Origin: Candidatus Giovannonibacteria bacterium RIFCSPHIGHO2_12_FULL_44_22
GTDB taxonomy: Bacteria > Patescibacteriota > Minisyncoccia > UBA11713 > 2-01-FULL-45-33
Length of the DNA: 41,673 nt
NCBI GenBank assembly: GCA_001778695.1
Contig: MFHU01000005.1
Span: 1 to 41,673, forward strand
Direction of reading: 5' to 3'
The notes under the pieces: model-generated
Database searches by the model: none
The model's input: only the letters and a program-made list of their open reading frames with translations
Told to the model about the DNA's origin: nothing
Made by a program: the position numbers and the translations under genes
Part shown: one piece after another, positions 12,286-22,620 of the stretch
Numbering within the stretch: position 1 is the stretch's first letter
How the letters are laid out: each line of letters opens with the position of its first letter

Positions 12286-12315
12286 TTGACATAATCCCTT
12301 GCCCCATGCTAACCT
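12286..12315 (+). promoter_or_regulatory. Promoter upstream of the secG leader element
   Basis: TTGACA-18 nt-TAACCT, about 10 nt before ATG at 12325 (left flank of the element). Confidence 0.6.
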
Positions 12316-12327
12316 TAGTAAATAATG

Positions 12328-12458
12328 CCAGGTAGTGAAATTTCGCATCACGGCGAAGCCGTTAAGTAGCTACTTTGGCAATGCTCTCAAACGTGATATT
12401 GTTTGCTAAAAATAAATATAGTTTAAATTATAAAATAATGCGAAATTCTACTACCTGG
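12328..12458. mobile_element. MITE-like inverted-repeat element A at the secG start codon
   Basis: TIRs CCAGGTAGTGAAATTTCGCAT / ATGCGAAATTCTACTACCTGG (19/21), flanked by direct repeat AATG (12324-12327, 12459-12462). Confidence 0.7.
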
Positions 12459-12459
12459 A

Positions 12460-12678
12460 ATGCGTAATTTACTCCTGTGGATACAGATTGCGGTTTCCGT
12501 GCTATTGGTTACGGCTATTTTGCTTCAGCAAAAAGGCGCGGGCCTGGGCGCTGCTTTCGGCGGCTCCGGCCAGATTTACCGCTCAAAAAGGGGCGTGGAA
12601 AAAAGCTTATTTATCGGCACTATTATTCTCACGATTTTATTCGTTGCAATAGCTTTATTCAACCTCATTATTAAATAA
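12460..12678 (+). CDS. secG: Preprotein translocase subunit SecG
   Basis: LLQQKGAGLGAAFGGSGQIYRSKRGVEKSLF. Confidence 0.93.
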   Translation: MRNLLLWIQIAVSVLLVTAILLQQKGAGLGAAFGGSGQIYRSKRGVEKSLFIGTIILTILFVAIALFNLIIK

Positions 12679-15081: not shown

Positions 15082-15218
15082 TCAGATAGTAGAATTTTGC
15101 ATCATCCCGCCTTGTGGGATAAATCTAATACCTGGCCATATACAAATAATTTATATATATTAAAAGTCGATAAGTTTAATAAAATTATTATTAATTAATG
15201 CAAAATTTCACTACCTGA
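15082..15218. mobile_element. MITE-like inverted-repeat element B at the rnj start codon
   Basis: TIRs TCAGATAGTAGAATTTTGCAT / ATGCAAAATTTCACTACCTGA (18/21), flanked by direct repeat TATG (15078-15081, 15219-15222). Confidence 0.7.
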
Positions 15219-15219
15219 T

Positions 15220-17040
15220 ATGCCGCCAAGACAAGAACATCATCAAAGAACTAGAATTAGAACTCTGCACGGCGCAGGGACGGTTACGCGCCGCACCTCC
15301 GCTTCGGAGCGCAAATTTCGCAAAGAAGGGTCGCTTACAGGCCACGAAGCGCACGGCCACGCCAAGGCCTTGAAGCACGACACGGTTTACTATGTTCCCT
15401 TGGGAGGATTGGAAGAAGTCGGCCGCAACTGCTCGTTTTTTGAATACAACGATGAAATTGTAATCATTGACATGGGCATACAATTCCCCGAAGAAGAAAC
15501 TCCAGGCGTGGATTGGATTATCCCTAACACGAGTTATCTTGAGAAAAAAAAGAAAAATATCAGAGGACTTTTGATAACCCACGGGCACTATGACCACTTC
15601 GGCGCGATTCCCTACGTTTTGGAACGGCTCGGTAATCCGACCATCTATGGCACGCGACTGATCAGAGAAATAATTCAAAAACGTTTAAGCGAAACGCCCA
15701 ACGTTCCGAAGATGCACTTCATAGAAATTAAAAATCACGACACCGTAAAACTTTCCGAACATTTTACCGCGGAATTTTTCGGTGTAAGCCATACCGTGCC
15801 CGACACCACTGGCGTCGCGCTCCACACGCCCGCCGGTGTCATGGTGCACTTTGCCGATTTCCGGCTTGATTACGACCAAGAAGACACAGTCCAAAACCTC
15901 CAGGAGTTTGAACGGCTCTCCAAGCTCGGCATCCATTCGCTGTTTTTGGACAGCACCAACGCGGACTTTGAAGGCCATTCGGTGTCGGAAAAATTGGTTG
16001 AAGCCAATCTTGAAAAAACATTTTTAGCTGCCGAGGGCCGCATCATTCTCTCCACCTTTGCCTCAATGATCACCCGCATGGCGGAAATCGTAAAAATTGC
16101 CGAAAAAATCGGACGCAAAGTCGTCATCAACGGCAGGAGCATGAAGGATAATTTGGAGATAGCGAAACAACTCGGGTATATCAAATACAAGCCGGACACG
16201 CTCGTGCGAATTGAGGAGCTCCACAAGCACAAAGACAACAAAATTCTTATTCTTTCCACCGGCGCTCAAGGCCAGAAAAGCGCCGGCCTGATGCGTATCG
16301 CGAACGGCGAACATAAGCAAATCCATATTAAGCCCGGCGACACGCTTATTTTTTCGTCCTCGGTTATTCCCGGCAATGAACGCGGCGTGCAAACGCTCAA
16401 AGATAATTTCGCGCGCCAGGGCGCAGTCGTTATCACCAATAATGACTTAGACATTCATTCATCGGGCCACGCCCCGGGCGATGACCTGACAATGATCGCG
16501 AAAATTTGCAAGCCAAAATTTATTATTCCGATTCACGGCTTCTATTTCAAACGCGCGGCCAATATTCAGAATATGAAAAAAATAGGAATCGGCAAAGAAC
16601 GCGTCATCTTGATGGACAACGGCCAGGTGGCCGAGTTAAGCCGAGACAACATAGTGGTCACCGACAAAACCGTTGATGCTTTTTATGTTTTGGTGGACGG
16701 CTTGGGCGTGGGAGACGTAAAAGAAGTCGTGTTGCGGGACCGCCAAATGCTTTCTCAAGATGGAATATTTGTAATGATCGCGGCAGTGGACGCTCAAACA
16801 GGAAAAGTCAAAGGTTCGCCGGATATTATCTCGCGAGGATTTATTTATTTAAAAGAATCTCATGAGCTTCTCGCGCAATCGCGGCATCTGGTGCGAAGAG
16901 TGATAGAAGAATCCACCACCAAAATGCACCCAATTAATTGGACACATGTTCGCGACAACGTCCGCGAAAAACTCGGCTCATTCCTTTTCCAAAAGACAAA
17001 AAGAAGGCCTATGGTACTGCCTGTAATTATTGAAGTGTAA
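15220..17040 (+). CDS. rnj: Ribonuclease J
   Basis: LLITHGHYDHFGAIPYVL metallo-beta-lactamase motif; beta-CASP; SSGHAPGDDLTMIAKICKPKFIIPIHG. Confidence 0.97.
   Translation: MPPRQEHHQRTRIRTLHGAGTVTRRTSASERKFRKEGSLTGHEAHGHAKALKHDTVYYVPLGGLEEVGRNCSFFEYNDEIVIIDMGIQFPEEETPGVDWIIPNTSYLEKKKKNIRGLLITHGHYDHFGAIPYVLERLGNPTIYGTRLIREIIQKRLSETPNVPKMHFIEIKNHDTVKLSEHFTAEFFGVSHTVPDTTGVALHTPAGVMVHFADFRLDYDQEDTVQNLQEFERLSKLGIHSLFLDSTNADFEGHSVSEKLVEANLEKTFLAAEGRIILSTFASMITRMAEIVKIAEKIGRKVVINGRSMKDNLEIAKQLGYIKYKPDTLVRIEELHKHKDNKILILSTGAQGQKSAGLMRIANGEHKQIHIKPGDTLIFSSSVIPGNERGVQTLKDNFARQGAVVITNNDLDIHSSGHAPGDDLTMIAKICKPKFIIPIHGFYFKRAANIQNMKKIGIGKERVILMDNGQVAELSRDNIVVTDKTVDAFYVLVDGLGVGDVKEVVLRDRQMLSQDGIFVMIAAVDAQTGKVKGSPDIISRGFIYLKESHELLAQSRHLVRRVIEESTTKMHPINWTHVRDNVREKLGSFLFQKTKRRPMVLPVIIEV
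17011..17040 (+). repeat. Left copy of the rnj 3'-end direct repeat (att-like)
   Basis: ATGGTACTGCCTGTAATTATTGAAGTGTAA; matches 18610..18639 at 29/30. Confidence 0.9.
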
Positions 17041-22561: not shown

Positions 22562-22566
22562 GCATG

Positions 22567-22604
22567 CCGGGTAGTGATTCCGCTGTTGCGAAACTACTAC
22601 CCGG
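22567..22604. mobile_element. Short hairpin element C related to elements A/B, between ychF and rpsF (may also act as a terminator)
   Basis: CCGGGTAGTGATTCCGC-TGTT-GCGAAACTACTACCCGG flanked by CATG on both sides. Confidence 0.55.
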
Positions 22605-22620
22605 CATGTTAAGATAAAAC

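Follow-up and report, generated by a model that had tools for sequence, protein, structure and literature searches.

Correia elements, which belong to the miniature inverted-repeat elements (MITEs) and occur in Neisseria, duplicate the dinucleotide TA at their targets. Like the elements described here, these sequences (Correia/CREE) are about 100-200 bp long, carry terminal inverted repeats (TIRs), are present in many copies that lie mostly just upstream of genes and form hairpins in mRNA (PMC10969869). REP/REPIN sequences with their RAYTs are similar in being short, palindromic and non-autonomous with GTAG-type ends. Homing endonucleases of the I-TevI and Seg/F-Tev type, either free-standing or intron-encoded, contain the GIY-YIG catalytic domain and also re-occupy sites across lineages. 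GIY-YIG enzymes normally hydrolyse DNA; to our knowledge, none is known to insert DNA and no GIY-YIG transposase has been described. In CPR rRNA genes, GIY-YIG-coding insertions match no intron and ORF-less inserts are mostly shorter than 200 bp; the study reporting them concluded that the GIY-YIG insertions did not spread by ordinary homing (PMC11270868).

We analysed a segment inserted at the secG start codon in a 41,673-nt stretch of DNA (referred to as the window). Reading of the sequence confirmed the coordinates of the original prediction (Table 1): the 131-bp segment at 12328-12458 (element A) is bounded by 21-bp imperfect TIRs matching at 19 of 21 positions (CCAGGTAGTGAAATTTCGCAT and the reverse complement of CCAGGTAGTAGAATTTCGCAT, 2 mismatches) and has an AATG on both sides, the right one containing the secG ATG at 12460. 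Shuffled windows indicated that 0 chance matches to the arm are expected. The promoter predicted before the left ATG was also present, with TTGACA at 12286-12291, an 18-nt spacer and TAACCT at 12310-12315. The proposal that the AATG is a target-site duplication agreed with orthologous secG loci, which are empty with a single AATG. Excision of the element and one AATG had been expected to rebuild a compact secG, and an element-free promoter-start block was indeed found in relatives.

Table 1 Coordinates of element A, of further copies and of their target genes in the window
Feature	Position	Strand	Basis or remark
secG promoter-like block TTGACA-18-TAACCT, upstream of the insertion	12286..12315	+	read directly; element-free in relatives
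Left AATG of the 4-bp target-site duplication	12324..12327	+	read directly; single AATG at empty sites
TIR arm 1, GTGAAA type	12328..12348	+	window read-out and arm search
AT-rich interior of element A, without ORF, non-autonomous	12349..12437	+	sequence and ORF reading
Inner small hairpin of element A, ACGGC-GAA-GCCGT	12350..12362	+	fold; equivalent hairpin covaries in 26 copies of genome G107
TIR arm 2, GTAGAA type	12438..12458	-	window read-out and arm search
Right AATG of the duplication, ATG = secG start codon	12459..12462	+	read directly; empty sites
secG, 72 aa, target gene	12460..12678	+	ORF; orthologues in 97/98 genomes
Element B, 137 bp, TATG duplicated, at the RNase J start codon	15078..15222	-	arm search; nine empty relatives
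TIRs of element B	15082-15102 and 15198-15218	-	opposite orientation
RNase J, target gene of element B	15220-17040		ORF
38-bp miniature, same family as element A, CATG duplicated, between ychF and an S6-like gene	22563..22608	+	window search

Comparison of related genomes indicated that insertion had occurred repeatedly. The block TTGAC..CATGCTAACCTT..AATAATGCGTAATTTACTCC, or a close variant, was element-free with one AATG in eight family relatives. Genome G003, from another genus than the host genome G000, contains the same element at the same secG position; the two copies are 125/131 identical (95%), secG itself 166/216 (77%) and the upstream 70 bp about 40/70. The secG site is empty in G001 and G007, congeners of these two hosts. 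An element better conserved than the gene that follows it, together with empty congeners, indicates that the secG site either received insertions on separate occasions or acquired the element by transfer. At ileS, G000 and G003 are occupied by elements differing in size, and most other genomes are empty. G000, G008 and, in inverted orientation, G002 carry an element at the MANLEEL-type gene; their congeners G001 and G004 have none there. Occupancy at secG, ileS and the MANLEEL gene therefore shows that the same start codons are hit repeatedly, and insertion at the same sites recurs in several lineages. At RNase J, nine relatives are without the element and have one TATG. G002, a congener of G000, carries a different element at the secG start codon (L032), with the TIR CCCGTTAGAAAT and ATGCGT on both sides. 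TIRs of this type also flank GIY-YIG genes at the starts of frr (L064) and of a sugar nucleotidyltransferase gene (L067).

The arm search identified seven elements in the 643-kb genome G000, at secG, RNase J, ndk, ileS, the MANLEEL-type gene, jag and an hppA-like gene; these names come from comparing ORF translations with known protein N-termini, not from annotation. All seven are flush with an ATG and have AATG, TATG or CATG flanks, one left flank having drifted to TATA; 4-bp direct flanks are found at other copies as well. Relative to their genes, six of the seven point the same way; the RNase J copy is inverted. Within the recO frame of this genome, a 31-bp mini-hairpin CCGGGTAGTGAAGCGCAGCTCTACTACCCGG (L002 721-751, contig C4) has CTTTG on both sides, keeps the frame and resembles Rickettsia palindromic elements.

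Arms of type CCNGGTAGTGAAANTTYG were detected in 54 of 392 genomes of the class, whereas the reversed-pattern control gave almost none. Two genomes, G202 and G107, contain more than 50 arm-1 copies each (about 50 elements). Among 92 well-matched elements, sizes clustered at 65-81, 123-157 and 305-322 bp, and the G-T/A-C pair at stem positions 10/11 was retained in at least 91. An exact 4-bp duplication was found in 64 of the 92 (TATG 40, CATA 7, then AATG, CTTG, AAAA and others), which argues against membership of IS200/IS605 or REP/RAYT, groups with an HUH transposase and no duplication. Copies of 71 bp were nested within the arms of larger copies, with AAAA duplications. The family is mobile and duplicates 4 bp of its target, and the mobile-element reading of 12328-12458 is supported. 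Viral contigs yielded none with the short-element pattern, and an arm match in a reverse-transcriptase gene (L027) was discarded as a chance match.

The elements prefer start codons. In G107, 17 of the 20 copies with a TATG duplication stand before an ORF with 60 or more codons, against a background of 35 start codons among the 176 TATG sites located at gene starts or in intergenic positions (p ~7e-10). Part of this bias may stem from counter-selection of insertions elsewhere, yet intergenic TATG sites outnumber start-codon ones. Across loci, start-codon copies were 45 forward and 7 reverse. The secG and ileS sites fit a leaderless-promoter pattern; as a general rule, however, targeting of such promoters was rejected, since a -10-like box is no less frequent in shuffled AT-rich flanks than ahead of the insertion site. 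Insertions were also found at the 3' ends of rny and yidC, where the TIR provides the last codons GCC AGG TAG; at rny of G009 this keeps the native Ala-Arg-stop, judged from the duplicated downstream flank. At another locus (L029, G003 C1, near 114175), the rny 3' end is itself duplicated, one copy being followed by a CCCCCACACC-type palindrome and the next by a family-1 hairpin.

Full-length members of the family encode a GIY-YIG protein. The ileS element of G003 is 305 bp long and codes for one of 85 aa (PF01541, E = 4e-18); in the element proteins, Y3, Y5, Y16, G18, R26 and E62 are invariant and the motif residues are intact. A blind scan of 85,488 species genomes (GTDB) for family-1 arms 297-327 bp apart returned seven matches, and all seven contained a complete 85-94-aa GIY-YIG ORF. 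Six of their hosts are titled Patescibacteria or member groups (Portnoybacteria, Yanofskybacteria, Doudnabacteria), one only 'bacterium', and most of these elements are flush at gene starts, including those of secA-like and gspF-like genes. The coding members measure about 300-325 bp, with TIRs of about 20 bp around one GIY-YIG gene. In the host's family, 6 of 30 GIY-YIG genes were flanked by TIRs; at 30 further loci of the class this was the case for 18 of 30 GIY-YIG genes versus 1 of 163 other short ORFs (p ~1.6e-16). The TIR families around these genes are unrelated to each other (CCAGGTAGT, CCCGTTAGA, CCCCCACACC, TTTACCC and CCCGTAGAG), and in several of them GIY-YIG is the sole gene of the ~300-bp members. 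A classical transposase hidden between longer TIR pairs was considered and rejected: the fetched loci contained no family-1 pairs separated by over 350 bp, the spacing that a DDE-type IS needs. One GIY-YIG gene of G000 (L083, C3, 56522-56758) lies inside a perfect 22-bp TIR (CCCCCACACCAACTTATGTTTT) flanked by duplicated CCTA, immediately ahead of a tRNA-like sequence; the start codon of the nuclease falls within the TIR or at its border.

Nuclease type and TIR type go together. On a protein tree of 28 element-encoded GIY-YIG proteins with five TIR family labels, the TIR label required 4 changes, the minimum for five labels (shuffles average 14.2), and host family required 14. Removal of the C-terminal tail gave a poorer fit, with 8 changes (shuffles 14.2), indicating that much of the match lies in this basic tail. 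The tails vary by TIR family (for example KTNQGSRLLKRRLKEY, KTGMGKRYLKNRLKRF and NLKLRSRAFAQLKKRI) and, as judged from the sequences, are a natural candidate for the part that recognises the TIR; in family 2 the last four nuclease residues are encoded by the TIR itself, adding slightly to the match. UPF0213/URI GIY-YIG proteins (PDB 1zg2, 1ywl) were the closest structure matches by sequence, and the presence of SLX1, a structure-specific GIY-YIG nuclease, among distant PDB matches makes hairpin recognition conceivable. A family-1-type nuclease (120 bits or more) was detected in 9 of 20 genomes with family-1 elements versus 0 of 20 without (p = 0.001), and about half of the tested element-bearing genomes had no close family-1 nuclease. 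In G000, the closest one (L062) is outside any TIR. Family-1-type GIY-YIG genes with no detectable TIRs adjoin the MANLEEL-gene element in two genera (L002 812-1087 in G000 and L063 in G008).

The hairpin could alternatively be a vertically inherited, structured 5' leader, a cis-regulatory RNA of secG and other genes, with the AATGs occurring by chance or belonging to the stem. The RNA fold of element A (z = -4.24), the stem end flush with the start codon and the predominant orientation of start-codon copies are all in line with such a leader. So is covariation in G107, where pairing in the closing stem and inner hairpin of 26 copies reaches 99.7% and 6 pairs show compensatory changes, although this pairing implies constraint on, or correction of, the hairpin whether as DNA or as RNA. 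Wobble pairs numbered 18 G-T versus 12 A-C on the transcribed strand, a difference that is not significant; strand polarity was therefore dropped as proof of RNA function, and it may be in DNA, not in RNA, that the conserved hairpin is required. The automated count of inner hairpins from the same comparison is biased and was left aside. An Rfam search of five element loci matched no family; its hits were microRNA hairpins below threshold and one sRNA match attributed to chance. As a sole explanation, an inherited leader is contradicted by the secG, RNase J, ileS and MANLEEL orthologues that are empty in most relatives, by copies that precede unrelated genes or are inverted, nested or at stop codons, and by copies that contain a nuclease gene; we regard it as very improbable. 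The original prediction of a miniature inverted-repeat element stands on the empty sites and the 4-bp flanks, and its second part, that the insert now forms a structured leader of secG, is plausible from the fold but finds no echo in wobble polarity.

An element acting at the RNA level, intron-like or by ribosome bypass, would exploit the repeated AUG. It would account for a structured insert between two identical AUGs, and GIY-YIG ORFs are typical of mobile introns (a weak grpIintron_endo match was below cut-off). Stop-codon and intergenic copies (CTTG, TTTG and AAAA duplications) would, however, gain nothing from splicing or hopping, the second AUG suffices for translation, and no Rfam intron with a group I or II core matched the five element loci at E up to 5. 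This explanation is scarcely credible. The GIY-YIG gene might instead be a passenger or a plain homing endonuclease, all TIR elements being moved by an unseen host or IS transposase. GIY-YIG enzymes are classical among homing nucleases, occupation of the same sites recurs between lineages, and many GIY-YIG genes lie outside detectable TIRs. Against this, GIY-YIG is the only ORF of ~300-bp elements in several TIR families, TIR type tracks GIY-YIG type, the fetched loci contain no widely spaced family-1 TIR pairs, and homing alone gives no 4-bp duplication at unrelated sites, of which there are many here. We consider a passenger or homing role unlikely.

We think it probable that the segment before secG is a MITE-like copy of a Patescibacteria element family whose autonomous members of about 300-325 bp consist of TIRs and a single GIY-YIG nuclease, including the following mechanism. 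A GIY-YIG nuclease from elsewhere in the cell or community would recognise the element ends through its basic C-terminal tail, the ends being presented as duplex TIR or as an extruded hairpin with the invariant G-T/A-C mismatch. It would make a 4-nt staggered cut at an AT-rich ..NATG, preferably a start-codon TATG, and repair of the staggered ends would leave the 4-bp duplication seen at the copies. With its ATG duplicated, the gene keeps a start codon directly at the right TIR, and insertions at stop codons bring the last codons with their TIR; hosts would tolerate the insert since the start codon is kept and the stop-codon end supplied. Copies lacking the nuclease gene would still move in trans; they nest in each other and recur at the same sites across lineages. 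At secG, the outcome would be a hairpin leader before a formerly nearly leaderless gene, with a putative effect on expression. Catalysis of insertion by the GIY-YIG protein, whether by cutting or joining DNA, is suggested by the sequences, as are trans movement of short copies and an effect of the hairpin in the secG leader.

The reading we favour for the insert is that of a MITE-like, non-autonomous derivative presumably moved in trans by the GIY-YIG nuclease of its ~300-bp relatives. It is short (131 bp), has 21-bp TIRs and no ORF; target-site duplication is visible through empty sites at secG, RNase J, ileS and the MANLEEL gene; and copies are dispersed (7 in G000, about 50 each in G202 and G107). 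In one respect it departs from a MITE: the parents with the same TIRs encode GIY-YIG only, not a DDE or HUH transposase.

A search of published open-access papers found no GIY-YIG genes with inverted repeats in CPR and no Patescibacteria MITEs, and related topics returned eukaryotic or unrelated work only. A large group of very small GIY-YIG elements landing on start codons is apparently undescribed. The streamlined genomes of Patescibacteria contain many small GIY-YIG genes that lack an explanation; many of these now have a role, each being the only gene of a ~300-bp mobile element, and dozens of start-codon hairpin 'leaders' are explained as insertions. If GIY-YIG proteins do insert DNA, this would be a transposition chemistry undescribed in prokaryotes within the literature reached. 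The elements would be among the smallest autonomous ones known, with a natural start-codon preference, and would account for many apparent 5' leaders in uncultured genomes and some mis-annotated start and stop codons. They would possibly also explain the odd GIY-YIG inserts in CPR rRNA genes.

We lean towards the view that these DNA transposons form a new class: one GIY-YIG nuclease of 85-94 aa would replace the known transposases, mobilise hairpin-ended elements and target start codons by a TATG-like 4-nt staggered cut; members of the class would be perhaps the smallest autonomous prokaryotic transposons, Patescibacteria-wide, with dozens of trans-mobilised miniatures per genome. Elements with TIRs and target duplications are already known, and the class would be new if the nuclease proves to be the mobility enzyme. 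The rRNA gene insertions come from the same phylum and are described in rRNA genes only, in a text where no mention of inverted repeats or start codons was found (PMC11270868); they may be the same elements. I-TevI and Seg/F-Tev differ from the present elements, which have a minimal protein of 85-94 aa, TIRs, a 4-bp duplication, no intron and many unrelated sites. What sets the element proteins apart from UPF0213/URI proteins is a distinct basic tail at the C-terminus, which varies with the TIR family. The RAYTs belong to the HUH enzymes and duplicate no target, in contrast to the clear 4-bp duplications and the GIY-YIG gene found here. Correia elements have different TIRs (PMC10969869), whereas the present family combines a 4-bp duplication with insertion flush with the start codon and has a likely parent, identified here, that codes for GIY-YIG rather than being a DDE or HUH insertion sequence.
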